Of a DNA stretch of 64,000 nt, positions 3,391 through 58,847 are shown one piece after another. Positions within the stretch are counted from its first letter, which is position 1; every line of letters begins with the position of its first letter. Below the pieces are notes generated by a model. That model did not search any database. It saw nothing but the letters and a program-made list of their open reading frames with translations, and was not told the origin of the DNA. The DNA comes from Spinellus fusiger. Taxonomy: Eukaryota; Mucoromycota; Mucoromycetes; Mucorales; Phycomycetaceae. A program made the position numbers and the translations under genes. The DNA is taken from positions 167,827 to 231,826 of the forward strand of contig JALLLS010000058.1 in assembly GCA_025094145.1 (NCBI GenBank). Direction: 5' to 3'.

Positions 3391-3691
3391 TCTGAGAATA
3401 AAAGGGTCATGGAATGGTTGGCATAACAAATAAATACACCAGGAAATAATCCCGATTGGCTACTGGGTGATCATATTTGTAAGGAACTGAAGATGTTGGT
3501 GGCAAACCAAGAAACTCTATATTTTAATTGTCGGTATATCTATCAGTAAATTAACATTACTAAATCATTAGATTCCAAAAAATAATCTCCGGAGAGTCCA
3601 TAGACAATCATTAGTCATCTATTCTTACTATGTAATAGGTTATCCAGTTTATTTAGACACTTTAGCATGGTACTTTTATTACATCCTTTCT
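3391..3691. other. Intergenic before the Fanzor element
   Basis: AT-rich sequence with no recognisable gene or repeat. Confidence 0.45.
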
Positions 3692-3739
3692 ACACACCAG
3701 GAGGTCTTTAGGATATAAAAGGAAATAGTCGAAATACAA

Positions 3740-3905
3740 TTGTTTAAGAAATAACATCGATTTGAAAAGGTGTGAAAATAAATTAAGATGTATTCATGTT
3801 AGTTCTTAAATAAAGATTATTATGTTGATTTACCTGTAAATATCTGAATCCCGAAGGAAACCACTTTCGATGTGGCGATATATGATATAATACGAATAAG
3901 AATAT
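3740..3905 (-). ncRNA. Candidate omega (guide) RNA / element-end region of copy A
   Basis: Non-coding segment between the Fanzor stop and the left terminus. It is about 95% identical by eye to 24405-24572 in copy C, although the flanking protein remnants have decayed. It holds a short hairpin, CCAC-7 nt-GTGG (3861-3875), next to a CCCGAAGG motif. In TnpB and Fanzor systems the guide RNA comes from just this place, 3' of the nuclease gene and running into the element end. Expression and exact ends are unknown. Confidence 0.45.
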
Positions 3906-3911
3906 CTATTC

Positions 3912-4570
3912 TTATGTGACTGTATAGATACCCTTTGATGCATTCACATCTCTGTTCTAAACAATTCCGCAACTTTGGCAAGCGCGGATATTGTTGAAAT
4001 TTACTAATACCTCAGTGAGGATATTTGTGTTGCAAGTATGGCAGATCTTGAGAACAAAAAAAGAAAACAAAACAGAGTAACTGTTAAAAGAGCTTTTCAT
4101 ATTGAGTGAGAGGTCAATCATGCTTACCCTCGATGTAAAGAACTCATCGACATCAACCAGAAGAAGATCACCACTCTTTTGTCTCTTTTTCAGTGATTGA
4201 TATAATATTCTTGTCAAACCAACACGATGGCCTTTGAACTTGACAGCATCCTTTCCTTTCATTCTTGCACCATAAGCAACAACTGGCAGCTTGGTAGGAT
4301 CATACTCCAATCCTTTTAGGTGCCAATAACCCTTTTCAATAATAGAATAGTAGTAAGAATAATTAGTTCGAGATGTATTAATGTACTCTATGTGTGTGTG
4401 TCGTATTACCCTTGCACTGGCACTTTCTTGCCTTTGTAATGGACTCACTGGGTTTACTATAGTAAAAATATATACAATAGAAACTGACTGACATGTCAGA
4501 CACAATAAACATATACAAACACTTACCAGATCACAACTGTTGGCTCTTATGCCAGACAAAGGCAAACAAA
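3912..4570 (-). pseudogene. Fanzor (eukaryotic TnpB-like RNA-guided nuclease), C-terminal part, pseudogene
   Basis: Fanzor proteins are eukaryotic relatives of TnpB and Cas12 that cut DNA with a RuvC fold guided by a transposon-derived RNA. The exon at 4128-4331 encodes LPVVAYGARMKGKD...GHRVGLTRIL...LLLVDVDEFFTSR, which includes the RuvC-II glutamate in VDEFFTS. An 81-bp intron (4047-4127) follows. Removing it joins TSR to ICHTCN, starting a Cys4 zinc ribbon (CHTC...CQSC) that leads into CGIV-stop-NRDVNASKG, the RuvC-III motif with its catalytic Asp. Another intron lies at 4332-4409 and probably one more near 4445-4525. The in-frame TAG replacing the Trp of WNRDVNA, and the missing N-terminal half, mark it as dead. 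The sister copy at 24573 keeps the Trp. Confidence 0.85.
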
Positions 4571-6687
4571 ATAAAGAGGGTAGAAGATATGGAGAAAAAC
4601 AGACAGTGTAGTTGGCAGGTTTCTATATCCGAACAGAAGAGAACAAAACTAAATTTCACAAGTCATTTGCTTAATCAGAACTACCAAAGTAATGCAGACT
4701 ACAACTCCATTCTAGAAAGAAAAAGAATTGCTTAAAGAACAGTTGCCCAGTTACTCATTGTGCTCAAATCGTGTGTTGTGTTCCTGTTCATGTACCCTCT
4801 TTGATTTCCCTAGACTAGCCTTTGTACTAATACTCTATTTCTTTGTCCCTGATAGAGACCAAACAACTACAGATTCATCTCTCTAGTGGTCCTGTTGATA
4901 ACCACAGTGCCCTTTATTACAGAATAAAGGATATATTTTACAAAGTTACATAGTATAGATCTTGAGGCTACTTTTATATATTTTTAAGCTATAAGGATCA
5001 AAGCTATACGATAATAACACCTCTGTAAATTCAGAGATGGATCTCATTCTCTTGTCCTATGTATGTTTCAAGGAAAGAGAGAAACTTTATTTACAACAAA
5101 ATCACTTTCTGGAATTCTATGGCCTTGAAATACAGGACCAAGATTATACACACTATAGGACAGGACAGTTACCCTTCCCAGTCTGCTTGGATGTTCTATG
5201 ATAGCCATAGCTATTAATTGAGAATAGCAAAATAGTAAAATTCATAGTAAAATTCATAGTAAAAGAAATGCCAAACTAATATAAAAAGTGTAGTTGTCTA
5301 CATCCATAATAAAATAGACTTTGATCCAAACAGCTTCCTAGAGTATAAACAAGATAATCTTTAGAGACTTGAGTAGCTGACTGTTTCTTATTCTCGACTT
5401 GTTTTCTTTGGTTGGCTAATGTGTTTGAAAAGATTCTTCTCACTGTCTGTCTGTTTTAGCATTGACTATGGACTGTGTAATTAAACACTATAAAGTTGGA
5501 TAAAAGGAAGGAGTAAACCTGACATTGCGACTCAATCACTGCATTTAATGTTTAACATGTGTTAACTATAAGCTCATAGTATTTGCAGTATGACACTGCT
5601 TAAGAAAGATGTATTACAGAACTTATAGAGTTAACTCTAGTGATTATTGTCCAGAAAAGAGAACCAAACTCACTTATATTAAGAACATTGTGTTCATTTA
5701 TTGACTCAATATTCATAATCACTTCAACAACTATCTTATTGTAACTGTTATTAACAATAGTACTTAATGATAACAGGGTATTGTTTCTAATACTGTCTCT
5801 TAGGCTCAAGCCAAATAGAGTGTGAATTGTTTGACATAAATTTTGACTTGTGAATTTTATGAGTGGAGGCTAGTGTATTCATTACCAGAATAGAGAAAGA
5901 AAGATTATTTGTTTTGATATTTCCCTATATTTGTTATTTCTCACACTTCACATACAACTTAACACCCGAGTACTCTTCAATATGAGCATAACTGAGCAAG
6001 GTGATGTGCTATTATTAACAAAGAGAAATAATAGAGAGAAGTTGTAGATACTACTAGAGGCTATTTTAGAAGTGAAAAAGGTAAGCAATGTCATCATCTG
6101 GGCTTGAGCTCATTGTAATCCATAAGACATAGTACTGATTCTTCTTCTAATAGATAATATATAGACTATTATTCTTAAGACAAGTATTAATTACAAGGTA
6201 AGCATACTATCTCTCTTATTGAATTATTACTAATAAACCCTTCTGTTATTATATAAGCTAAGTCTCTTCTCAAGTCAGTCCCAGGTGGTCTTCTTCCTTC
6301 TATACGGTCTAGGCTGTCTAGGGTATACTCCTGAGCATAGTTATCTATCTTCCAAAGATAAAGCATAAGGATTTTAGGGTATAGATTCTATTGCTATGAA
6401 GGAATATACCTAGAACAGCAGTAGCTATAGTAATAGTATGTTTTTAGCTACAGTATTTTTAGCTATATTATTACAATAAACAATTTTATTCACAAACAAT
6501 TCTATTCATAAACAATATATTTTATTGATAATACAATTTGATATTGAGGTATCCATAAAAAGTAAGAAAATTTTGGATACTCGCAAACCTTTGATTTCAA
6601 GCACAGTTTCATAAAAGGTAATAAATTTTAGATTTTAAAAGGCGAATATATCATCGCTTAAAGGCCAGAAAAATCTCCTGGTGTGTA

Positions 6688-22750: not shown

Positions 22751-23958
22751 ACACCCCAGGAGATTTCTGGCTTTTAAGCGGTGATATCTCCTTCCTTTTA
22801 CATCCGCAAAAAACACACCTTTTATGGAAAATGTTTAAAATCAAAGGTTTGCGGGTATTCAAATATTTGTTTCCTTTTGTAGTATACCTCACTATCAAAT
22901 TGTATTATCAATAGAATATTGTTGATGAATGAAATTGTTTATTATAATAGTATAGATAATACTATATTATGACTATAGATACTGCCTAAGTACATTCCTT
23001 CATAGCAATAGAATCTATACCCTAAAGACCTTATACTTTATTCTTGGGAGAAATATAACTATGCTCAGGAGTATACCCCAGACACCCTAGACAGTATAGA
23101 AGACAACCTGAGACTGACTTGAAAGGAGTCTTTACTTGCCTAATAACAATACATTGAGTGCCTTGTGGAATACAATGAACTCAAACCCGGATGAAGACAT
23201 TACTTACCCTTTTTACCTTAAGAACAGAATTTGGTAGTGTCTATCACTTTCTATTGTTTTTCTTTGTTAATAATGGCAAATTACCTTGTTTATTTGTTCA
23301 TCTTAACGGGTACTTGGGCGTTAAGTTGCATGGACAGTGTGAGAAATAACAAAAGGAGGGGAATATCAAAACAAATCATTTTTCTTTATTCTGGTAATGT
23401 ATACACTAGCCTCTACTCATAAAATTCACAAGTCAAATAATTCACACTCTATTTGCCTTGGACCTAAAAAACAGTATTATAAATAATACTTTGTAATCAT
23501 TAAGCACCACTGTTAATACCAGTTACAATAACATAGTTACTGAAGTGATTATAAATATTGAGTCAATGAGTGACTATACAGTTCTCAATTTAAGTGAGTT
23601 TGGCTCTATTTTATGGACAATGGCCACTAAAGTTAATTCCGTGTGTTTTATAATACATCTTTCTTAAGCAGTGTTATACTACAAATGCTGAGCATATGAA
23701 TAACATATTATGTTAAACAATAAATGCAGTGACTGAGTTGTAATTCTGGGGTGATTCTTGTTCTATTTTTTGTCTTTACAGCCAATTCTATACTTTTAAA
23801 TTGCAGTCAATCGTCACTGCTTAAACAGGCAATCAGAGTTTGAAATTGACTATTTAGATAGCGAAAAGGCATTTTAAAACACCTTCGCCAATCATAAGAA
23901 TATTGCGATTTTATTCTCAGGATATTTCCTTATATATCCCAAAAATCTTTGGGTGTGT
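22751..23958. mobile_element. Non-autonomous Fanzor-family element, inverted (copy B)
   Basis: Relative to copy F this copy is inverted. It begins TA|CACCCCAGGAGATTTCTGGC (the family's right end) and closes TCCCAAAAATCTTTGGGTG(TG)|TA (the left end). Both borders carry TA. Its 1.2 kb are collinear with 39528-40918 and 57361-58847 apart from their LTR insertions. It has no Fanzor coding remnant, so it is an internal-deletion derivative. Confidence 0.75.
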
Positions 23959-24363: not shown

Positions 24364-24404
24364 ACACACCAGGAGGTCTTTAGGATATAGAAGGAAATAG
24401 TCGA

Positions 24405-24572
24405 AATACAATTGTTTAGAAATGACCGATTTGAAAAGGTGTGAAAATAAATTAAGATGTATTCATGTTAGTTCTTAAATAAAGATTATTATGTAAATTT
24501 ACCTGTAAATATCTAAATCCCGAAGGAAACCACTTTCGATGTGGTGATATGATATGATATGAATACAAATAT
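24405..24572 (-). ncRNA. Candidate omega RNA / element-end region of copy C
   Basis: Counterpart of 3740-3905 with very few differences. The CCAC-7 nt-GTGG hairpin is at 24530-24544, preceded by CCCGAAGG, and the region runs to the left terminus. Function is inferred from position alone. Confidence 0.45.
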
Positions 24573-24790
24573 CTATTCTTTTCTACAGAATAGAACTGGT
24601 CGGTGGCGACCATTCAAAGCCTCTTCTGTGATTGTATAGATATTCTTTGATGCATTCACATCTCTGTTCCAAACAATTCCGCAACTTTGGCAAGCGCGGA
24701 TACTGTTGAAATTCACTAACACCTCAGTGAGAATATTTGTGTTATAAGTGTGGCAGATCTTGAGAACAAAAATAAGAGTAACTGTTGGAA
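24573..24790 (-). pseudogene. Fanzor C-terminal fragment (zinc ribbon and RuvC-III)
   Basis: After the end of an intron (about 24765 upward) the exon reads ICHTYN, then NILTEVLVNFNSIRACQSCG, then IVWNRDVNASKNIYTITEEA, then LNGRHRPVLFCRKE and a stop at 24573-24575. WNRDVNA is the RuvC-III motif and is intact here. In the first zinc-ribbon pair the second Cys has become Tyr (CHTY for CHTC in copy A). All upstream exons were removed by the internal deletion, so it cannot encode a nuclease. It defines the native C-terminus that copy A has lost. Confidence 0.85.
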
Positions 24791-25515
24791 GAGCTTTTCA
24801 TCTGGGCTTGAGCTCATTGTAATCCATAAGACATAGTACTGACTTATTTTAATAGATAACATATGGCTTATTATTCTTAAGACAAACACTAAGTACAAGG
24901 TAAGTTTACTATCTCTCTTGATTGAATTATTACTAATACACTCTTCTGTTATTAGATAAGTAAAGACTCTTTCTCAAGTCAGTCTCAAGTGGTCTTTTTC
25001 CTTCTATATTATCAATACTGTTTAGGGTGTATTCCCAAGCATAGTAATATATATCCCAAGAATAAAGCATAAGGCTTTTAGAGTGTATTTACTATTGCTA
25101 TGAAGGAATACGCCTAGAACAGTAGTAGCTATAGTAATAGTATAGTATTAGCTACAGTATTATTAGCTATATTATTATAATAAACAATTTTATCTATTAA
25201 CAATTTTGTTCATAAACAATATTATTTATTGATAATATAATTTGATATTGATGTATTCCATAAAAAGAAATAGAAATTTAGATACTTGCAAACCTTTGAT
25301 TTTAAACACAGTTCCATAAAGGGCAATGATTTTTTAGACGTAAAAGGAAGGAGATATCACCGCCTAAAAGCCAGAAAAATCTTTGGGTGTGTAGATCCAT
25401 AATCAATGATAATAAATTGTTCTATTTTATCAAGATACTTTACTAAGACTATCTATAGATCTCTATCCTTCATTTTATTAGTGAAAGAACAGCTCTTTAT
25501 ATGATTTGCAGAAGA

Positions 25516-32643: not shown

Positions 32644-33612
32644 GATGTAGGTCTTTTAATGTAGAAGGAGGGGTTTCTAGTCGCAGGCGTTGACAGGTTA
32701 TCGTGGTGTGTCAGTAGAGCCATTAGCACGTCACACTGCTATTCGAACACAGCTTAGTGATGCCAATAGGATATAGGCCTACCCATGAGTAAAGAGAAAA
32801 GAACCTTCAGTAAAGAGCCCGCAGAGCCAATGTTGGCTATTTTATCATCTCCTCAGTAATAAGTAGTGTTACCAACAAGGAGATATACTCTGCTATTAGG
32901 AAAAGACTCAGTGATAAAGAGCAGGCAGAACTTGACATGCCGCTATTAGACTCGGCCACTTCTGAATCAGAACTGGAGCAATGTCTTTAATAGTGCTCAA
33001 ATACATCATCTTTAGCGTATACAAAGGGGGGGTATTCATTAGTCAACTTTGAGGCTTCAATCTAGTACTACTGAAGCTGAGGTTTCTTTCTAGAAATAGT
33101 TCAACGCTTAAAAGCCTAACAAAATGGAGCATTTCTTGGAAGATGGCACAGAGGGAAGTCTGGCCTCTCCATAAGCATAGTATGTGTCTTCAAGGAGACT
33201 GATTTCTAAATACTATTTCATGAAGAGTGTGAACAAAGAAGGATCTATTGGTATTGTTCAAAATCCTCAATAAACAAGAGGTGTGCTAAGTAGTCAAGTT
33301 GTATCTCTCAAAGACTTCATTCTATAGATAAAGACTACTTGTATACATCTTCTTCCAAGGCACAACTGATATAGGACTCATTGTTCAATAGCATTCTCTT
33401 CATGAATGCACGGACAATCATCTTCCCTTGACAGACTTCCAGGGACAGAATGTCTCTTCATTTGTAAAATACTCCAGAGATTGTGTATTGACTAGAGGTC
33501 TTCTTCAGGCTTGTTGTCTTCAAAGCCACTGTCTTCTTCTATCAACCTGCATCTTCTTGCTAGTTCATCTCACAGTTGCTCTTCTTTTTCGGCCATATCT
33601 GCTGATTCCTTA
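32644..33612. pseudogene. Spacer with degraded coding fragments, probably retroelement-derived
   Basis: A plus-strand stretch at about 32862-32991 reads VTNKEIYSAIRKRLSDKEQA, ELDMPLLDSATSESELEQCL and a stop. On the minus strand, 33500-33600 reads ADMAEKEEQL-stop-DELARRCRLIEEDSGFED. Both look like eroded coding sequence with charged composition. The minus-strand fragment lies just 3' of the broken Ty3 polyprotein and may be its 3' end. Neither is identified. Confidence 0.4.
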
Positions 33613-36600
33613 AACCTCTGAGGGGAACCCGGATCCTAGCACGACCACTTCTTCTTGATCGGGTGGAGACAAGGCTCTTGTCTGGATGACTTCTTCTTCG
33701 TCCCATAAGTAGGGCATAAGTCTATCTCCATGATAGTTTCTTGCCAGCGGATTTCCTTCCCTGTCTCTTAGTGAATAGACGGATCGATATCTTGCAATCA
33801 CCTGGAAGGGTCCTGTCGTTCCTTCCCATGGTTTTACTATGTTGGATGCCTTGGGCAAGACTTTCACTGAGACCCATTCTCCAGGCTCAAACCATCTGGT
33901 TGCAATATTTCTATTTGCTCTCTCAAGAGCTCTTCTTCTTGTCGTATTCCTTTGTTTTGCTGTCTGTTTAGTCAGTCTTCTTTCCAATCTCTCTACGCTG
34001 TAGTCGTCTTCTTCATGTATGAGTGTCCCTGGTGGATTTAGACTTGGCGCTGTTCTTGGATAAGGCTGATCCTATAGAGTACAGCCTAGAGTAGCAGATA
34101 CAGCGTGGATGTGTGAAGCAATTATCCATGGTATATGTTTTGTCCATCCTCCTGTTTGTGGTTCGTCCATCTTCAGCCTTAGAAGTTTGTCTTTGAATAG
34201 TTTCATGGCACTTTTGGCCACTCCTGATTGTGAATGCATAGGTGAAGCACGTAGGTGTTGGATGTTTATTATTATTATCTTTTCTCAAGTTAGTCGGTAG
34301 ATTCATGGGAGATGAATTGCTTGTCATTGTCACTAGTGAGCTTTCGTAGAAGACCATGCTGTGAGGATCAGTTCTGCTTGAGAGTGCCCAATATCGTTGT
34401 GGCCGTCATGTCAGATATGGGGTATAGCTCATAATACCCACTGGTAGAGTCTATAGCAACCAGTGTGTCCACCTCTGAATCCTTGTCATCACCAATGTGT
34501 AGCAAGTCAATTGATATATGTTCTCGAGGTGACAGAGGTGACAGAGATTTGCATAGGCATGACAAGACCTCACTACCTTTTCTATAATACCCTGTAGGCC
34601 TTTGCGATATACTCTTTCTCTCACATAACTTGAGGTTCTGGTTATGCCTGGGTGGGCTAGTTTCTGGTGGATATCCCTTATCCATTTTTTTTGCTATGCT
34701 CATGGTGATGACTGGAACCCAAGATCCTATGGATCCTGTGTTGTGGGTAGATACTCAACAATGCAACACTCCATTTATTAACATGTTTGATACTTCATCC
34801 ATGTCAGTCATGGGGGGCTTCATTCATAGCATTACAATTTTTAGTCAGCCCAGTCCACATTATTGTTGGATCTGATTGAGCCTTCAACACCAGCTCATAG
34901 GGACCTTTGATATTATCTAGTGCCATTGCATGATGTGCCAGTGTGCCTTCAGGGTCATTGTCTTGAGGCTCATCCTCTTCCATGTCACTTTCGCTCTCAG
35001 TATCTTCTTCTTCCTCATGTTCATCCGGATTGTAGTCCAGGTCTTTGTCATTGTCACCTTCATCATCCCAGAACACTACATGGTCTACTTCACTGCCCAA
35101 TAATGGAGCTCCCTCTAGCTCAGAAGCTCCAATGGTCTCTGCCTCTTCTGAGTCTTTTGACTTTTTTCTTCTTCTGAGCTCTTGGTCTGTCCAGCACTCA
35201 AGAAAGCCAGTCTGCTGTTATTTGTGTTTCCCCAGAACGATGTACCACAATGTCTTGGTGCACTCCTAGACTGATTAGTTCAGCACGGAATCTTGATAGA
35301 TCATCTCGATAGTGCTTTGTCTTGTGTGTGAAGAGCCCCAGAGCAGTAGTTGCATCTGTTTCAATTATGTGGTTGACACATCCGTCCAGGTAGGGATGAA
35401 ACTGGTTGACTGCTGCCACCATTCCATAGGCTTCTCTCTAGTCTGGGTGCCTACTTCCTTGGGCTCCCTCAAAATCCTTTGAGTAGTATGCAATGGGTGT
35501 TACATTCTCTTGGTCAAGAGTAGAGTGAGCAAAAAGAACTGCTCTAATGCCAGATTCTGCGGCATCTACTCTTAGTATTAGAGGTGCTCCAGGCCTTGGT
35601 ATTGCCAAACGTTTTATGTCTGTGAGTGATTGCATTAGGGCTTTCCAGCTTGGCCTTGAGGAGTCTTTGTCTTGTTTGCTTAATCGTTTTGTTTTTTTGT
35701 TTTGTTTTTTGAGCCGATCATCTCATAAAAAGGTAAGAGTATAGATTGCGATCATGACAAATGTTCATTTATGGTGTTTATGGCCTCCACACATCCGTTG
35801 AATACCTTTCACAGTTTCTGGTATCTCCAGAGAAAGCAGATGTTTTATCCTGTGCTCGGGCACTCTCCGATCTTCATCTTCATCTTCATTCCACTCCCTT
35901 CCCAACATGGCAACATCAAGTCTTCCAAATAAAATAAAATAAAATAAATACACTTTTCTTCATGTTGATTAAGAGATTCGTTTCAGCCAGACAGTGAGCT
36001 ACTTCTCCAATATCTTTTACATGCTCTGTCTTGTTTCTCGTCGTTGATTTTAGGTATATATTATCAATATATATCAACAGTTTGTCAGATATGCTGGGTG
36101 CCCTTGCTAGTACGTGTTGCAAGAAAGCTTGGGCTATTGCTGGTGATTCAGAGTTTCCTTGAACCAGGCGTCTTGTCCTCAGTTTTCCAACACTTCCACC
36201 ATCAAAAGTCCAGCAATCTTGTACCTTCTGGTCAAGTCTAATAGCGGTGAAAAAGGAAGCCAGATCTAGGGATGTGAGTATCTTAGCTCCTCTCACGAAC
36301 AGTGCACGCTCCATGGGTGTCGATAGTTGCAGGCCCACTTTTCTCATATTTATAGTACTATCTGAACTATCATCCAACAGGACACGGCGATCGGTAGTTC
36401 CTGGCTTCTCTAAAGAAAAGAAAAAAAAGGGGGCACTTGTGCATGGGCATGTCCTTGTTCATCAATACTGCATTCAATTCCCTTGTTGATAAACTCTTCT
36501 TTTGAATCGGATGCGGCACCTCCAAGTGTGTGTTGCACCACGAAAAGCAGCTGCGCTTCGTCTTTCATTGGTATTGACACTGGAGCCTATGCCGCTGATG

Positions 36601-37600
36601 GTGGGCACCCACTGGAGTCTTCCCTTGGGGCTGCACGATGTGGATAAAGAGTAGTTAGATGTTCTTTTGTTTTCTCATCACACTGAGCTGTGAGTCTGGC
36701 AGCAATGCTATTTCTGTCAACTTTCAAGATACACGGCGTTATATTTCTCGAAATCATCGTCTCCCTCTGTTCTCTAAAGAAGTTTTCTTCTAGAGCTAGT
36801 GATGTCTACATCCTTCTTTGCACAATAGGTGCTTTCTTCCCCACACCAGTGTTCAAACTAAAGTCTTCTTCTGGCTCCGTAGTCACCTCAAAGATAGGTT
36901 TCAATATGTACCTATTTTTTTTTCACAGCTGAGCTCTTGATGAAGTAGCCTATAGACTGTAGTCTTGGATCCCATTAATAGTTCCCAGTCTGTCTTGAAG
37001 TCCACCACGACCAGACCCATCCACCTTCCAGGACATCCAGCGACCATGACCTTTGCATCGGTTCTCATAACTGTCGTGTATGGTTCTTGGTTCCACAAGG
37101 ACTTTAGTTTTGGAGGTGATTCCGTCTTTATGTGTAATCTTAGCTGATCTGCCATTTTCTTTGTAATGAGATTTGCTACAGCACCTTGATCAGCCACAGT
37201 GTGCACTCTCGTCCCACCAATTGTGGTAACTGCTAAAGTCACCCAATGTGTTGTTTTCCTTCTATTATTATGGCGGCACATACGACCACTGGTTACAGGT
37301 TCTAGTTTATTTTTAATAATAAGAATAAGAAAGATTCTATAGCTAGGGGTGAAGAAATGTATGCGTTGCCTAGTCTTTTTTCTTTTTATTCTTCTTCCAC
37401 TCGGCATAATGGCAGCCATATAGGAACTGATGTGGTTGAAGAGATCCCACCTTCCAGTGTGACATCTCAACTACCCATGTGTCAATAGACATCGAGCCTG
37501 TGAAGGTCGACGCTCGTTTTTTTCTGGAAGAGGTTGTGCGCAGTGGCTGTACTCTTTTTTTTTTCTTTTTTCTTTTTTCTTTCTTTTTTTTTTTGAAAGA
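33613..37600 (-). pseudogene. Broken Ty3-type LTR retrotransposon polyprotein
   Basis: Domain order along the minus strand: protease remnant near 37200-36970 (TVADQGAVANLITKKMADQL, with DQG where DTG/DSG is usual); a linker near 36900-36400; reverse transcriptase 36380-35930 (LTSLDLASFFTAIRLDQKVQ; LVQGNSESPAIAQAF; YIDNI where YIDD is usual); RNase H 35640-35200 (LILRVDAAESGIRAVLFAHS; IAYYSKDFEGAQGS; ITADWLS); an acidic insert near 35060-34960; integrase 34700-34010 (ERVYRKG; HISIDLLHIGDDKDSEVDTL); and an integrase C-terminal block 33987-33613 (WFEPGEWVSVKVLPKASNIV; YHGDRLMPYLWDEEE). Frames change at least six times with stops in between, so it is inactive. Protease-RT-RNase H-integrase order assigns it to Ty3 rather than copia. 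Clear flanking LTRs were not found. Confidence 0.85.
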
Positions 37601-39527: not shown

Positions 39528-40918
39528 ACACACAAGGAGATTTTTGGGATATATAAGGAAATATCCTGAGAATAAAATCGCAATATTCTTATGATTGGCG
39601 AAGGTGTTTTAAAATGCCTTTTCGCTATCTAAATAGTCAATTTCAAACTCTGATTGCCTGTTTAAGCAGTGACGATTGACTGCAATTTAAAAGTATAGAA
39701 TTGGCTGTAAAGACAAGAAATAGAACAAGAATCACCCCAGAATTACAACTCAGTCACTGCATTTATTGTTTAACATAATGTTATTCATATGCTCAGCATT
39801 TGTAGTATAACACTGCTTAAGAAAGATGTATTATAAAACACACGGAATTAACTTTAGTGGCCATTGTCCATAAAATAGAGCCAAACTCACTTACATTGAG
39901 AACTGTATAGTCACTCATTGACTCAATATTTATAATCACTTCAGTAACTATGTTATTGTAACTGGTATTAACAGTGGTGCTTAATGATTACAAAGTATTA
40001 TTTATAATACTGTTTTTTAGGTCCAAGGCAAATAGAGTGTGAATTATTTGACTTGTGAATTTTATGAGTAGAGGCTAGTGTATACATTACCAGAATAGAG
40101 AAAGAAAAATGATTTGTTTTGATATTCCCCTCCTTTTGTTATTTCTCACACTGTCCATGCAACTTAACGCCCAAGTACCCGTTAAGATGAACATAAATAA
40201 ACAAGGTAATATGCCATTATTAACAAAGAAAAACAATAGAAGGTGATAGACACTACCAAATTCTGTTCTTAAGGTAAAAAGGGTAAGTAATGTCTTTATC
40301 CGGGTTTGAGTTCATTGTATTCCACAAGGCACTCAATGTATTGTTATTAGGCAAGTAAAGACTCCTTTCAAGTCAGTCTCAGGTTGTCTTCTATACTGTC
40401 TAGGATGTCTGGGGTATACTCCTGAGCATAGTTATCTATCTCCCAAGAATAAAGTATAAGGTCTTTAGGGTATAGAATCTATTGCTATGAAGGAATGTAC
40501 TTAGGCAGTATCTATAGTAATAGTGTTGTCTTTGATCTTAGATATCAAAGGAATCCGGTCAGTCAACGTGTGGTTAAACTCTGCTCTTTATTCATTCAAT
40601 TGTACATCTCTGACACATGTAGTAACCTTCCTCTTTTGGTTGTTATGCGACACAAATGGAGAACATCCATTTCTGAAAATAGTCTTATGACAATAGTATA
40701 TTATTAGCTATATTTTTATAGTAAACAATTTTATCTATCAACAATATTTTTTATTGATAATACAATTTGATATTAAGGTATCCATAAAAAGAAACAATTC
40801 TTTAGATACTCTCAAACCTTTGATTTTAAACATATTTCCATAAAAGGGCAAAATATTTTTGGACGTAAAAGGAAGGAAATATCACCGCTTAAAGGCCAGA
40901 AAATTCTCCTGGTGTGTA
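39528..40918. mobile_element. Non-autonomous Fanzor-family element with nested LTR (copy F)
   Basis: Left end TA|CACACAAGGAGATTTTTGGG; right end CTTAAAGGCCAGAAAATTCTCCTGGTGTG|TA. Collinear with and almost identical to 57361-58847 over long stretches (for example 39990-40260 against 57820-58100). It has no Fanzor exon. A 169-bp LTR piece sits at 40524-40692. Confidence 0.8.
40524..40692 (+). repeat. Solo LTR nested in copy F
   Basis: Runs TGTTGTCTTTGATCTTAG...AGTCTTATGACA and is flanked on both sides by ATAG, a 4-bp target duplication. Removing it and one ATAG restores the sequence seen in sister elements (TAATAGTATA). It is shorter than its relatives and diverges from them in the 3' half. 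Confidence 0.75.
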
Positions 40919-41373: not shown

Positions 41374-42730
41374 CCCTCAACAAGTAACCGGATTATTTTT
41401 TTCAAATTCGGGACTATTTTTATACAAGAAAATAACATACACTATTTATTTTTCTTTCATAGATTTTTTCCCCTAATGTCTGCACTATCCAACACTATGA
41501 ACATCTTCACCAGAATCCCCGAGATGTATGGGAAATAGACCAGCCTTGAGACTTGTTTAGCTATTTTGAACAAGGTGTTGAACCTGAGACCTACTCAGGC
41601 TGAGGCATCTCATATGTTCAACGTGCCTGATTCTGCTGTGAGAGACATAGTAAAGTACTACAAAACAACAACAACAACAACAACAACTGGGTTAAAACCT
41701 CACCTAAGAGTGACCACAAGAGAAAGTTGGACGACAGAGCCCTCTGGTGGTTGAGAAGAACAGTTGTGAGCAACTCCCACCAGACCAAAGTAGCCATCAT
41801 GGCAAGTATGGCCATCAAGGTCTCAGACAAGACTCTGAAGTAGTACCTTGATGAAATGAGCTTTTATCCATATAGTCTGGTAGTCAAACCTATTTTGAAA
41901 AATAAAAAATAAAGAATAGCATAAAGGGTAAGACTCCACTGGGCCCATGAGCAGTGGCAAGAGGTTGTCTGGTCCGATGCGTCCAGAGCCCAGTTCATGG
42001 GCTACGACAGGGAGATCAAAGCCATTGGGCAGTGTAGTATATCCTTTAAGCGTGAAGAATGTTCTGGAAACAAGGAATTTTGGTGGAGGTGGAGTAATGG
42101 TATAGGCTGTTTCAGTGGGGAGGGTGCTGGGAGATGAATCGTAGTGAAGGATAAGATAAACTCCGACAAGCACGTCGAGGTACTTGGAGAAGCCTACTGC
42201 TCTGAGCTCAAGCGTATCTCTCTCCTAAACTCTGGAGTCAGTTACCGCCTACAGGAGGACAATGCTAGGCCCCATACGAGCAAGGAAACTCGTGAATGAA
42301 AGGCAGCAAAGAGTGTAGTAATGACTCTTTACTGGCCCTTACACTACTGATCTCAGTCCAATGGAGCATCTGTGGAGCCACTCCAAGAAGGTTATTAGGA
42401 AGGACAGGAGGTTATATTACACCCAACAGAAATTAGAGGCGGCCTTGATGCTGGAGTGGGGCAAAATATCGACGGAGGTAACAGACACCCTCATTGCCAG
42501 CATGGGGCGGAGATGTCAGGCCGTCATTGATGCCAAGGGATAATGGTGGTTACTAATCAACCTTATAATAAAAAGTTCTTTTTATGTATTATAAACACTA
42601 TTCTATGTATCTATCGAGAGTTCCATGTTTTTAGCTAATGAATTCATAAAGTTATAACACTATTAAGGCATCGTATGAAACTAAAATAGGAAATCTGCAT
42701 TTGAATATTTCCGGCTACTTGTTGAGGGTC
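41374..42730 (+). mobile_element. Dead Tc1/mariner element, copy 1
   Basis: Inverted ends CCCTCAACAAGTAACCGG (41374-41391) and CCGGCTACTTGTTGAGGG (42711-42728) enclose one transposase gene on the plus strand, broken by stops and frameshifts. Readable parts are LRPTQAEASHMFNVPDSAVR (helix-turn-helix), a run of eight ACA codons' worth of Thr, WAHEQWQEVVWSDASRAQFM (first catalytic Asp), QEDNARPHTSKETRE (second Asp), and MEHLWSHSKK with MGRRCQAVIDAKG at the C-terminus. Identity with copy 2 continues about 45 bp beyond the right repeat, so the true terminus may lie near 42775. It cannot encode an active enzyme. Confidence 0.88.
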
Positions 42731-45700
42731 ACTTTAATTAAAGGCTACTTGTAATAAAATCTAGAATATATATACTAATTATTAAAAATCAAATGAATAA
42801 TTGAATATTGCTTTTAATTATGATTTTGAACTGAAACATAATGGCCAGCAACAATTCATAATTGACATTTAAGTTAATACTTTAGTACAAGCTATAAATT
42901 AGACTTTAGATATGATAGAAAGGCAGCCTATGATATAGAGTGCGCACAGAATTGTACTTAGCTGTATAGAGTATTTCCACAATAAACCAATCTATTGGAA
43001 TGTGTGTATCAAAAAGATAGAAAGACAGAAAGGGGGTGATACAACTACGCAATAACAGATAAGTATAAGGAATATAAAAGGTGATACTAGTTGCCCTGTA
43101 AGGCTAACTTTAACTGTAATAGTCGACTTTACATTTATTATTTGAAATGTCTGGGAGTTAAAAGAAAAAGGCAGTATATTGAAAGGGGTACTATATTGGA
43201 GAATAGAATAGGGATAAATCTATCCACATTACTGGAATCGCAACTTTGATGGGTTTGAATTTATCCATCGGTAATTAAGATGAAGAATGACTGATGTTGC
43301 TTCTCAGAGTGCCAATATCTTTACTACAAAAACACGTGTACTGCTTTTAAAATACCGATATCACTCTTTCTATTCCCAAACTATAAATCAAACTTCTTGC
43401 ATTATTTTGTTGTATCTTCAACAAATCCTATCGGAGTTAAATCGGGCTTAATAACACCCCGTCATGCCTACTATAGACTAAACTAAGGTTGAATTTTCGT
43501 GCGTGTCTGTCTATTTTACAAAAATATCTTAGGCAGACCAAGACTGCTATCTTAATTTTAAAATACCATGTAGTACTCATCATTCACTGGAAAATGTATC
43601 ACAATACATGAAAAGATTTCAAGGTAGTAAGACAATATAGGATCAATGTTAGACAATATAATGCAATACATATGTAAAAAGTAACATGTTGATATATTTC
43701 TGAAGGACTAAGTTGGGGATTTTATGGATATTTATATTGGGTAAACTAAGCTAAGATCATTCACTCATTTTAGATCAACAGCATTTTTGTCTCTGATTTA
43801 GCTAGCTATTTTTTCGAGCTACGCTATTCATGCGTCTCTTATGCCTTACATTACTTATTTAGTTAATAGTGATCGGATCTATTACCGACCATTTGTTTCA
43901 AATCAAAGTTCAACCATTAAGCCTCTAACTAGTACTAGCCATGTGGCATGGAAATAAGACAAGGTCATCACAAGAAGAGGAGAATCTTATAGTAGTTGCA
44001 TCGAGGTATTTTATTTCTGACTAAATTATAGTACCAGCTTGGCCTTACTACCTGATCAAAAAAGGAAATTGTTACAAAACAAATCGATATTTTGTGATGT
44101 TAGCCAGTGACCGCCAGCAGGCTTAGCTTTTGAAGTACAATGCGGTTAAGAAGGCGCATTGGGGCAAAGAATGTATAAATGGAAGTCTTAAACTCTGGAA
44201 AATGATTAACTTATTATCTTGTTCATTTAGCATAGGCTTGAAGAGACACAATTACTTTGGAATTTGTATTGGTTTGGCCATTTGATCTAGCATCTACTCT
44301 TTCTAAATTAATATGAAACTCTCATATATGTTGCAACCCAGAGAATCTCTTGGATTTATTCAATACAAGTATTCAAGCAACCTTTCTACTGCTTGTTGAT
44401 AAACCTTCTATTTCAGTTTTTCTTTAGATACAGAAAGCTGTAACTAGTGAGTTATTTTTTCTGCTGTCTCTTTGAATTTTCTTTATGCTTTTATCTTCTT
44501 CTTTACCTGTACTACAACTATTCTGTGACCAACACAACTCAATATTATAACTATATGAATGTGATCGAGAGAAAAATAAAACACAGCACAGATTGCTTTA
44601 CCATTAATATGAAATTAAATAAAGACTTATAATGTTGTATAAATATATATCTTAGTTACTATAGAATTATATACTTTGCATAATAACAACAAAATATGCT
44701 CTTTCTTATCAAAACTTCCAGTGGAAACTATAGTCTTTAAGACCTGGTTTAAGATACTGGATATATGAGTAAGTCTGTTCACTTGCTATTATCTTGATTC
44801 TAAATATCTCACTTGTTTCAATATTATTAAAATCTCCGCTAATCATTAGCAACTTTTGCATGAGTATTTGGCATTGCGAAAAAGACAACATGAAGCTCTA
44901 GAACTTACGGCTTCCATCTCAGTGTAACACTACATTGCTTAATTTGTCACTAGAGTTTAGTAACTATAGTAATCTATTTGCCATTCACTAGTATTATCTT
45001 ATTGTTTTTATAGTCGCTACTGTTACAATAGCATTGGTATATATCTGTATGGATGGATGGATGAATTGAAAACGTGTAAAGTTGGAGTATATATTATATA
45101 TTATATAGACTCAATTGATGAATTATTATCATTATATCAAGTCAATTTTCCACTAAGGGTCCCGATCACTCAATCCTTGCTTGGTAGTACCAAACCATAC
45201 AGTATTAGATTTTAGTTGAACTTCATGACGCTTTTTCTGTCTTATTTTTGTGCTTACTTGAGTATGATCATGTCTTCCTGTTTGGGTCTGTACAACTAGA
45301 AAAACGCCCATAGTGTTTGTTTTTTTCTTGTACATATTAGTTTTGTTTCCAGCCTTTATTGCCAGTATTGACTTATATTCGACAGTCTTGTACTCTTTTA
45401 TGAAGCAAACTTTCTTTTCAAGATATTTGTTCTTAAAATGACAATGTGATGCTTATAAAACAGCTATCCTGATGCTGTAGTTGAATATCATAAGGAAAAT
45501 TTAAGTGAATAATACTGACATTATATGTAAGTTGTAATTATATTACTACTTACAAATATACTAAAGTTTGGGAGATAGCACTAGATGAGTTTTCTATTAA
45601 TCGCAATAGATACTAGCGTCTAGTACATTTTTTGCTGACAAATAAGGTACTGCTATATAATAGTTAAGGATGTTTGTAGGTGACATTAGTTGTTTCTTTT

Positions 45701-55742: not shown

Positions 55743-56029
55743 AATGGATATTATGGTGGAAAAAGAAGAAATGATGAATGAGTAGATAAATAGATATATT
55801 TATATATTTGAGTAAAATAAAGGTCGGAAAATGAAAAGGGTTATATATATTTCGCCGAACATTGAACATATGATTATATGTACCTCTATTTCTTTTAAAA
55901 AACTGTAAATATTTCGAGATATAGTCTTAAACAATTAGACTGGCTGGTTTCTAGCTGAAAAATACTTGACCTATTGATATCAAAAAACTATTAGCCTCTA
56001 ATTAAATGTAAGCTGAGAAATATATTTAT
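55743..56029. other. Spacer between two mariner-type elements
   Basis: AT-rich sequence; likely includes the 5' end of the Tc1 element above. No inverted repeat could be fixed by eye. Confidence 0.4.
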
Positions 56030-57360
56030 ATATTCTAGATTTTATTACAAGTAGCCTTTAATTAAAGTGACCCTCAACAAGTAGCCGGAAATATTCAAAT
56101 GCAGATTTCCTATTTTAGTTTCATACGATGCCTTAATAGTGTTATAACTTTATGAATTCATTAGCTAAAAACATGGAACTCTCGATAGATACATAGAATA
56201 GTGTTTATAATACATAAAAAGAACTTTTTATTATAAGGTTGATTAGTAACCACCATTATCCCTTGGCATCAATGACGGCCTGACATCTCCGCCCCATGCT
56301 GGCAATGAGGGTGTCTGTTACCTCCGTCGATATTTTGCCCCACTCCAGCATCAAGGCCGCCTCTAATTTCTGTTGGGTGTAATATAACCTCCTGTCCTTC
56401 CTAATAACCTTCTTGGAGTGGCTCCACAGATGCTCCATTGGACTGAGATCAGTAGTGTAAGGGCCAGTAAAGAGTCATTACTACACTCTTTGCTGCCTTT
56501 CATTCACGAGTTTCCTTGCTCGTATGGGGCCTAGCATTGTCCTCCTGTAGGCGGTAACTGACTCCAGAGTTTAGGAGAGAGATACGCTTGAGCTCAGAGC
56601 AGTAGGCTTCTCCAAGTACCTCGACGTGCTTGTCGGAGTTTATCTTATCCTTCACTACGATTCATCTCCCAGCACCCTCCCCACTGAAACAGCCTATACC
56701 ATTACTCCACCTCCACCAAAATTCCTTGTTTCCAGAACATTCTTCACGCTTAAAGGATATACTACACTGCCCAATGGCTTTGATCTCCCTGTCGTAGCCC
56801 ATGAACTGGGCTCTGGACGCATCGGACCAGACAACCTCTTGCCACTGCTCATGGGCCCAGTGGAGTCTTACCCTTTATGCTATTCTTTATTTTTTATTTT
56901 TCAAAATAGGTTTGACTACCAGACTATATGGATAAAAGCTCATTTCATCAAGGTACTACTTCAGAGTCTTGTCTGAGACCTTGATGGCCATACTTGCCAT
57001 GATGGCTACTTTGGTCTGGTGGGAGTTGCTCACAACTGTTCTTCTCAACCACCAGAGGGCTCTGTCGTCCAACTTTCTCTTGTGGTCACTCTTAGGTGAG
57101 GTTTTAACCCAGTTGTTGTTGTTGTTGTTGTTGTTGTTTTGTAGTACTTTACTATGTCTCTCACAGCAGAATCAGGCACGTTGAACATATGAGATGCCTC
57201 AGCCTGAGTAGGTCTCAGGTTCAACACCTTGTTCAAAATAGCTAAACAAGTCTCAAGGCTGGTCTATTTCCCATACATCTCGGGGATTCTGGTGAAGATG
57301 TTCATAGTGTTGGATAGTGCAGACATTAGGGGAAAAAATCTATGAAAGAAAAATAAATAT
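56030..57360 (-). mobile_element. Dead Tc1/mariner element, copy 2 (3' end of insertion truncated)
   Basis: Nearly identical to copy 1 (41374-42730) in reverse orientation, including the same stops and frameshifts. The visible inverted end is CCCTCAACAAGTAGCCGG at 56070-56087, and similarity to copy 1 continues outward to about 56030. The Thr-coding run has one unit more than in copy 1. At AAATAAATA (57360) it is cut by Fanzor-family copy G, and the opposite inverted end is not found beyond that element. Confidence 0.88.
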
Positions 57361-58847
57361 ACACCCAAAGATTTTTGGGATATATAAGGAATATCCTGAG
57401 AAAAAAATCACAATATTCTTATGATTGGCGAAGGTGTTTAAAAGGGCCTTTTCGCTGTCTAAATAGTCAATTTCAAACTCTGATTGCCTGTTTAAGCAGT
57501 GACGATTGACTGCAATTTAAAAGTATAGAATTGGCTGTAAAGACAAAAAATAGAACAAGAATCACCCCAAAATTACAACTCAGTCACTGCATTTATTGTT
57601 TAGCATAATATGTTATCCTTAAGCCTTACAAAAAAAAATTATCCTTAAGCCCATAGTATTTGTAGTATAACACTGCTTAAGAAAGATGTATTATAAAACA
57701 CACGGAATTAACTTTAGTGGCCATTGTCCATAAAATAGAGCCAAACTCACTTACATTGAGAACTGTATAGTCACTCATTGACTCAATATTTATAATCACT
57801 TCAGTAACTATGTTATTGTAACTGGTATTAACAGTGGTGCTTAATGATTACAAAGTATTATTTATAATACTGTTTTTTAGGTCCAAGGCAAATAGAGTGT
57901 GAATTATTTGACTTGTGAATTTTATGAGTAGAGGCTAGTGTATACATTACCAGAATAGAGAAAGAAAAATGATTTGTTTTGATATTCCCCTCCTTTTGTT
58001 ATTTCTCACACTGTCCATGCAACTTAACGCCCAAGTACCCGTTAAGATGAACATAAATAAACAAGGTAATATGCCATTATTAACAAAGAAAAACAATAGA
58101 AAGTGATAGACACTACCAAATTCTGTTCTTAAGGTAAAAAGGGTAAGTAATGTCTTCATCCGGGTTTGAGTTCATTGTATTCCACAAGGCACTCAATGTA
58201 TTGTTATTAGGCAAGTAAAGACTCCTTTCAAGTCAGTCTCAGGTTGTCTTCTATACTGTCAATGATATCTAGGGCATACTCTTGAGCATAGTTATCTATC
58301 TCCCAAGGATAAATCACAAGGCTTTTAGGGTGTGGATTCTATTGCTATGAGGGAATGCACTTAGGCGGTAGCTATAGTACATAATATAGTATTATTTATA
58401 CTATTACAATAAACAATATATTCTATTCATAATACAATTTTGTCGTGATGTCACTTTCCTTTTATGGATAATGACATCTTTAGTGAAGAAGCTAACTGGA
58501 AAAAGAAAGGTGAACAGTTGAAATTAGACTAAAGGATAGCTCGTCCTGAAGATGTAATTATTATATCATAAGTTAGCAGAAGTAGTGCGTAGAAACATTA
58601 TAAAAGAAGTAATCAATTGAATGAATAAAGAACAGAGTTCTACTACACGTTTAACTGTCCGGATTTCCTTTGATAACTAAGATCAAAGACGACAATTTGA
58701 TAGTGAGGTATCCACAAAAGAAAATAATTATTTGGACATCCGCAAATCTTTTGATTTTAAACACAGTACCATAAAAGGGCAAAATATTTTCGGTCTTAAA
58801 AGGAAGGGAATATTAGCGCTTAAAGGCCAGAAAATCTTTGGGTGTGT
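57361..58847. mobile_element. Non-autonomous Fanzor-family element with nested LTR (copy G)
   Basis: TA|CACCCAAAGATTTTTGGGATA at the left and TTAAAGGCCAGAAAATCTTTGGGTGTG|TA at the right. Collinear with copy F and almost identical to it. No Fanzor exon. A solo LTR lies inside at 58441-58694, and the element itself sits in the dead mariner copy 2. Insertion order is therefore mariner, then Fanzor-family element, then LTR. Confidence 0.82.
58441..58694 (-). repeat. Solo LTR nested in copy G
   Basis: 254 bp, TGTCGTGATGTCAC...AAGACGACA, flanked by ATTT on both sides (58437-58440 and 58695-58698), a 4-bp target duplication. Excising it restores ACAATTTGATA as in the sister elements. Orientation is opposite to that of the 40.5-, 41.1- and 52.8-kb LTRs. 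Confidence 0.85.

Follow-up and report, generated by a model that had tools for sequence, protein, structure and literature searches.

A decayed Fanzor copy on an abundant TA-inserting element of Spinellus fusiger, with a one-sided TCTA flank

How have elements carrying remnants of a Fanzor gene spread through the genome of Spinellus fusiger, and did Fanzor take any part in it? The question is raised by an element of 2993 bp at positions 3693-6685 of the window, which is the whole stretch of DNA analyzed (64,000 nucleotides of contig JALLLS010000058.1). The element is bounded by terminal inverted repeats (TIRs) with TA on either side, and its minus strand carries Fanzor exons. Its termini read CACACCAGGAGGTCTTTAGG... 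at 3693 and ...AGAAAAATCTCCTGGTGTG at 6685, and TA stands at 3691-3692 and 6686-6687, which confirms the inverted ends next to TA reported in the original prediction. The end on the Fanzor side is called the F end, and the end distal from the Fanzor 3' end is called the N end; some other copies have a different end, F'. The features are as follows, with the strand given where a feature has one.

3691-3692: TA at the F end, flank ..TTTCTA
3693-3728: F-end TIR, CACACCAGGAGGTCTTTAGGATAT..., and start of the F end; 344 exact F ends genome-wide
3693-3908, minus strand: conserved stretch from the Fanzor 3' end to the F terminus (52-sequence alignment); candidate omega RNA position
3909-4046, minus strand: Fanzor exon 4, zinc ribbon and RuvC3, ICHTC...ACQSCGIV, stop, NRDVNASKGIYTVT, stop, E (tblastn survey)
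3957-3959, minus strand: in-frame TAG; TGG in 34 of 55 sampled copies
4047-4127, minus strand: intron, 81 nt, GTAAGC...CTCAAG; splicing suggested by motif continuity
4128-4331, minus strand: Fanzor exon 3, GYWHLKG...VVAYG...LLLVDVDEFFTSR, with the alternative RuvC2 glutamate (sequence match)
4663-4797, minus strand: probable upstream exon (third-codon-position excess, alignment of 18 copies)
5404-6685: backbone half, partly common to copies without a Fanzor exon match (copy comparison)
6662-6685: N-end TIR, distal from the Fanzor 3' end (sequence comparison)
6686-6687: TA at the N end; flank towards the element 5'-TCTA, the predicted TAM
22752-23957: copy with N and F' ends, no Fanzor exon match (tblastn, end comparison)
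24365-25391, minus strand: second copy with an F end; exon 4 at 24758-24579, with W (TGG) and stop-free
39529-40916: copy with F' and N ends, no Fanzor exon match (tblastn, end comparison)
57360-58846: copy with F' and N ends, no Fanzor exon match (tblastn, end comparison)

The identity of the gene emerges when its exons are joined. Exon 3 (4331-4128) carries VDEFFTSR and ends LLLVDVDEFFTSR, and the 81-nt intron follows directly. Exon 4 (4046-3909) includes ICHTC...ACQSC and reads ICHTCNTNILTEVLVNFNNIRACQSCGIV, then TAG, then NRDVNASK. The three motifs named in the original prediction, VDEFFTSR, a Cys4 zinc ribbon, and NRDVNA, are all present in the spliced exons at 4331-3909 of the minus strand. 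In the published Fanzor pattern, an alternative RuvC2 glutamate lies six residues before the zinc ribbon and is followed by the RuvC3 aspartate, E-x6-CxxC-x(12,18)-CxxC-x(4,8)-D (PMC10711439, as given in the part of that article drawn on here). Among three spliced peptides tested, the pattern is matched by the window exons, with the stop written as X, and by locus L030; the L035 peptide, in which the second zinc cysteine is tyrosine, fails it. None of the window's six frames contains the fingerprint unspliced. A composite spliced peptide, assembled from residues seen in the sampled copies rather than translated from one copy, matches PF07282 with 49.6 bits (cutoff 26.3, E = 4e-13). Against the PDB, its best match is TranC (E = 5e-4), accompanied by TnpB-like L79 (E = 7.5e-4) and TnpB chains. 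The unspliced window ORF gives nothing meaningful in Pfam or the PDB. These data support membership of the spliced exons in the Fanzor/TnpB family, as had been predicted, and the continuity of the motifs suggests that the intron is removed.

Because an in-frame TAG (3957-3959) precedes NRDVNA, the window copy is, judged by its sequence, a pseudogene. The original prediction had recognized the diagnostic C-terminal half of Fanzor, and the motifs bear it out; this stop went unmentioned, however, and the gene is broken. At the same RuvC3 tryptophan codon, 55 de-duplicated copies have TAG in 18, TGG in 34, and an unreadable codon in 3, so the stop was inherited or converted among many copies. The catalytic glutamate is E in 41, K in 11, and outside coverage in 26 of 78 tblastn matches, a survey that takes in overlapping loci and split matches. 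Exon 3 is interrupted by stops or frame breaks in several copies. Upstream, the 18-copy alignment gives third-position ratios of 2.1 and 3.7 in two overlapping 90-nt windows, and one further exon is probable at 4663-4797. The RuvC1 DPG motif is expected 120-160 residues upstream of the glutamate. Contiguous GAY-CCN-GGN codons were found in 0 of 57 element ends of up to 3.0 kb each, and neither a recurrent RuvC1-like motif nor an N-terminal domain was recognized in these ends; a DPG that is mutated or split by an intron would escape such searches. The gene appears recognizable in its 3' half only, and since DPG was not found in the element ends, we file it as a Fanzor relic rather than an intact Fanzor. 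No intact Fanzor was seen among 60 loci (some overlapping) of the 38-Mb genome or among the 150 of 457 genome candidates that were scored. Ten of the 150 PF07282 exon matches listed contain one stop, which is TAG in all ten.

Rfam (gathering threshold) and tRNA scans of the window gave no matches. On the minus strand at about 5600-5870, a frame of up to roughly 90 codons (HTLF..LSL..NNTLLSLST.VN.SYN) is open in several F and F' copies, and a consistent codon-position signal is absent from the same region. Elsewhere in the window, minus-strand ORFs at 33610-37470 resemble a degraded LTR retroelement when judged by eye.

The window element belongs to a very large family. Exact matches to the F end number 344 (200 + 144) in 38 Mb. 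When the first pattern position is restricted to A or T, F' ends give 101 matches and N ends 265; with G or C at that position, N ends of the CAGGAG type add 86. Looser counts with up to two mismatches are 678, which may include some F' ends, and 526, against 0 for reversed-pattern controls, which puts the recurrence of the termini above chance. That the ends are common to four other copies in the window, as first proposed, holds in part: four further TA-flanked copies are present, but three of them have the different F' end and no Fanzor exon match. The F' copies that were read (these three, L059, and L060) have the N half and the N end in common and lack a Fanzor exon match. N ends fall into subterminal types of 30, 7, 5, and 4 among 67 ends, with 21 unassigned. 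F ends appear uniform in a set selected by a pattern that demands the conserved part, and N and F termini differ within the first 24 bp. We take 3693-6685 to be a decayed and non-autonomous member of this TIR family, which is very abundant and has TA as its target.

Several loci stand apart. In L060:33-2619 (G000:C190), two F'-N copies make up a palindrome: the sequence and its reverse complement are 99.3% identical, and some 130 bp separate the N ends. On one contig, several Fanzor matches of equal score also lie in opposite orientation. The palindromic copies reflect either a real inverted duplication or an assembly fold-back. L060, as an F'..F' pair, and L059 (C61), a long N..N pair, were considered as autonomous elements and rejected from ORF lists only; the former is the near-perfect palindrome. 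L055 has an exon 4 match and an F' end, and no F end was found there.

Insertion at TA was examined through flanks and empty sites. TA lies outside both ends in all four further window copies. Of 52 joined flanks tested against the loci read, one, that of L012, is spanned by four paralogous repeat copies with a single TA each (L014, L022, window 42701-42485, and window 56098-56314). L012 reads TTCATTA, element, TAGATAGA, compared with TTCATTAGATAGA in L022. L012 and the empty repeats are 73-74% identical, with an 8-bp gap nearby, and together amount to one independent empty site only. Other junction-spanning matches pair L029 with itself, where two elements lie side by side. Insertion at TA, claimed in the original prediction, is supported by this one insertion with its four paralogous single-TA empty sites. 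The proposal of Tc1/mariner-type rather than IS607-type mobility fares less evenly: the TIRs and the single-TA empty site agree with it, but membership in mariner would be claimed with no TIR-matched transposase seen. Also in the window is an inverted 1.33-kb repeat (41443-42772 and 56027-57359), whose two copies are 99.8% identical; it belongs to the repeat family in which the L012 insertion and the corresponding empty sites are found. The element copy at 57360 begins exactly at the end of the 56027-57359 repeat. Comparison of 56027-57359 with 42772-41443 as an empty site for that copy was rejected, because the sequences beyond disagree.

In the sequence read, no transposase was seen between the family's TIRs (CACACCAGGAG/CACACCCAAAG ends). 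An abundant Tc1-like DDE_3 family, represented by L041:1141-2713 (G000:C35) near one copy of the element, has 75-nt inverted ends containing TGTCGCATTAATAAA. Its 104 matches include nine full 440-aa stop-free frames that are 93-100% identical, query included, and on these frames the family looks recently active. It was rejected as the element's own transposase, since it lies outside the element and has different inverted repeats (75 nt).

A further property of the family is an asymmetry between the flanks of its two ends. The asymmetry was first noticed in fetched loci; the first genome lists are a wider set that overlaps them, and the second lists are a replicate on other copies. In the first lists, TCTA flanks 39 of 100 N ends (the first 100 of 265) versus 11 of 100 F ends (the first 100 of 200; p = 7e-6), and 14 of 100 F' ends (the first 100 of 101). 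Within these N ends, the motif is found at 34/70 of the CAGGAG type and 5/30 of the remaining types. In the replicate, distinct flanks give 34/82 for N ends versus 5/47 for F ends (p = 3e-4), with letters for only 49 of the 144 places of the F list; T at -4 alone falls short of significance (p = 0.06). Pooled distinct flanks show TCTA at 67/150 CAGGAG-type N ends versus 16/146 F ends (p = 8e-11). The same pattern is present within single copies: in 40 sampled copies with both ends, TCTA is at the N end in 24 and at the F end in 3 (p = 8e-7), where the partner is the nearest N-like end within 3.7 kb and a few may be neighbors' ends. Paired copies with the TAG stop have the motif at 10/14 N ends versus 2/14 F ends.

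Part of this pattern is ordinary CTAG-like target preference, since C at -3 is preferred at both ends (72/146 F flanks). Among flanks with C at -3, T at -4 occurs in 67/111 on the N side versus 16/72 on the F side (p = 4e-7). Because the TA target is symmetric, a motif on one side only calls for a process that depends on orientation. The partner end appears to matter as well: C at -3 occurs in 2/9 N ends paired with F' versus 19/23 paired with F (p = 0.003), where F' pairing was by coordinates rather than by reading, n is 9, and 68 of the 100 N ends are unpaired, 47 of those with C. The missing C preference at F'-paired N ends, few as they are (n = 9), favors a role for the F end.

We regard as probable a reading in which a transposase acted in trans and Fanzor aided retention. 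The elements would have been moved by a transposase encoded elsewhere, most likely DDE-type and mariner-like. For a Fanzor made elsewhere, now or formerly, the F end would have served as omega RNA and the adjoining sequence outside it as guide; at the window copy, the guide would be the flank beyond 3692. The 5'-TCTA beside the N end would be the TAM. Fanzor would cut the empty site left by excision, and repair from an occupied copy would restore the element. The TAMs of TnpB and Fanzor are located opposite the omega RNA. We predict the TAM 5'-TCTA from the one-sided motif opposite the candidate omega RNA end together with the precedent of Spu-1 from Spizellomyces punctatus, which has a conserved CA upstream of its 5' inverted repeat (IR) and the TAM CATA (PMC10432273, in the portion of the report used here). 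Because the TAG copies are still asymmetric, either the help would be supplied in trans or the asymmetry is the work of the transposase.

Some observations count against this reading. An omega RNA structure in the conserved 3693-3908 region is unsupported by RNAalifold (-3.3 kcal/mol, z = -0.72), and the 52-sequence alignment has both-sided change in 1 of 21 pairs and hardly any covariation. Trans action lacks a known source, in that no intact Fanzor turned up among the loci read and the candidates scored. TCTA accompanies only the 5/30 non-CAGGAG N ends noted above.

The serious rival, possible though somewhat unlikely in our estimate, is that the transposase made the asymmetry by recognizing unequal ends and inserting in a preferred orientation at TCTA-like sites, with Fanzor uninvolved. 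The divergence of N and F ends within their first 24 bp and the preference of both for C at -3 are consistent with this, as are the lack of any functional Fanzor among those seen, the equal asymmetry of broken-Fanzor copies, and the weak TCTA at non-CAGGAG N ends. However, F'-paired N ends have the same N terminus and yet show C at -3 in 2/9 versus 19/23, and the position and side of the motif agree with the arrangement in Spu-1 as described in the passages available. Very unlikely is a second alternative, that a nuclease-dead Fanzor remnant was retained in some other capacity, such as that of a regulator that binds DNA under RNA guidance. It would explain the spread of TAG copies, in that the stop is common to 18/55 sampled copies and the 14 with measured length are 2.5-3.2 kb; however, the TAG precedes RuvC3, several copies have exon 3 stops or frame breaks, K occupies the catalytic glutamate site in 11 matches, the N-terminal domain was not recognized, and decay plus movement in trans suffices. 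Scarcely credible is an IS607-type Fanzor2 element mobilized by a serine recombinase (TnpA, which inserts into short dinucleotide motifs): IS607 transposons do carry Fanzor2s (PMC10711439, in the text drawn on), but the present family has TIRs and an empty site with a single TA, and no serine recombinase was noticed on reading the ORF lists.

Fanzor1-only, TA-flanked TIR elements are an already described kind (PMC3627910, in the part of the survey drawn on here). The closest appears to be Spu-1 (also SPu-1) of Spizellomyces, a Fanzor1 on a TIR element with a putative TA duplication (PMC3627910). Like the window family, Spu-1 combines a fungal Fanzor with TIRs and TA, and its authors, in the sections consulted, found no transposase flanked by its IRs; its 134 IR loci without a Fanzor ORF ("ghosts") resemble the Fanzor-less copies here. 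Spu-1 differs in that its gene consists of one ORF, which 19 loci have at full length, whereas the window family has introns, a 3' half only, and no RuvC1 seen. Its dinucleotide is CA, compared with TC here (predicted TAM TCTA), where several hundred ends are available. PUl-4 and other Fanzor1-only elements also have TIRs and TA duplication; the TIRs of this PUl-4 type match those of confirmed Mariner members exactly, whereas such a partner was not found for the window family (PMC3627910, same excerpted text). The Fanzor1 elements of Mucor, Rhizopus, and Phycomyces (MuDR or unclassified) come from fungi of the same group, but those described in that text have MuDR-type TIRs, or 11-12-bp duplications without TIRs, rather than TA and short TIRs (PMC3627910). 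PpFz1 of Parasitella parasitica, likened by description only, is a fungal Fanzor1 with TAM 5'-ATN-3' as against the predicted TCTA (PMC11423790, in the portion used).

A broader proposal, which we put forward tentatively as possible rather than probable, is that hundreds of copies, including the shared-stop subfamily, spread and were kept via a trans-acting Fanzor with a TCTA TAM. The flanks would then preserve, across the genome, a fossil trace of a eukaryotic cut-and-paste transposon being re-homed under RNA guidance, and the several N-end types joined to one F end would be repair products. Whether Fanzors aid the persistence of DNA transposons in eukaryotes is an open question, and the authors of the Spu-1 study proposed it as a possibility (PMC10432273, in the portion cited above). 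The hundreds of ends in Spinellus, the F' comparison class, and the predicted TAM make part of that question testable from sequence.
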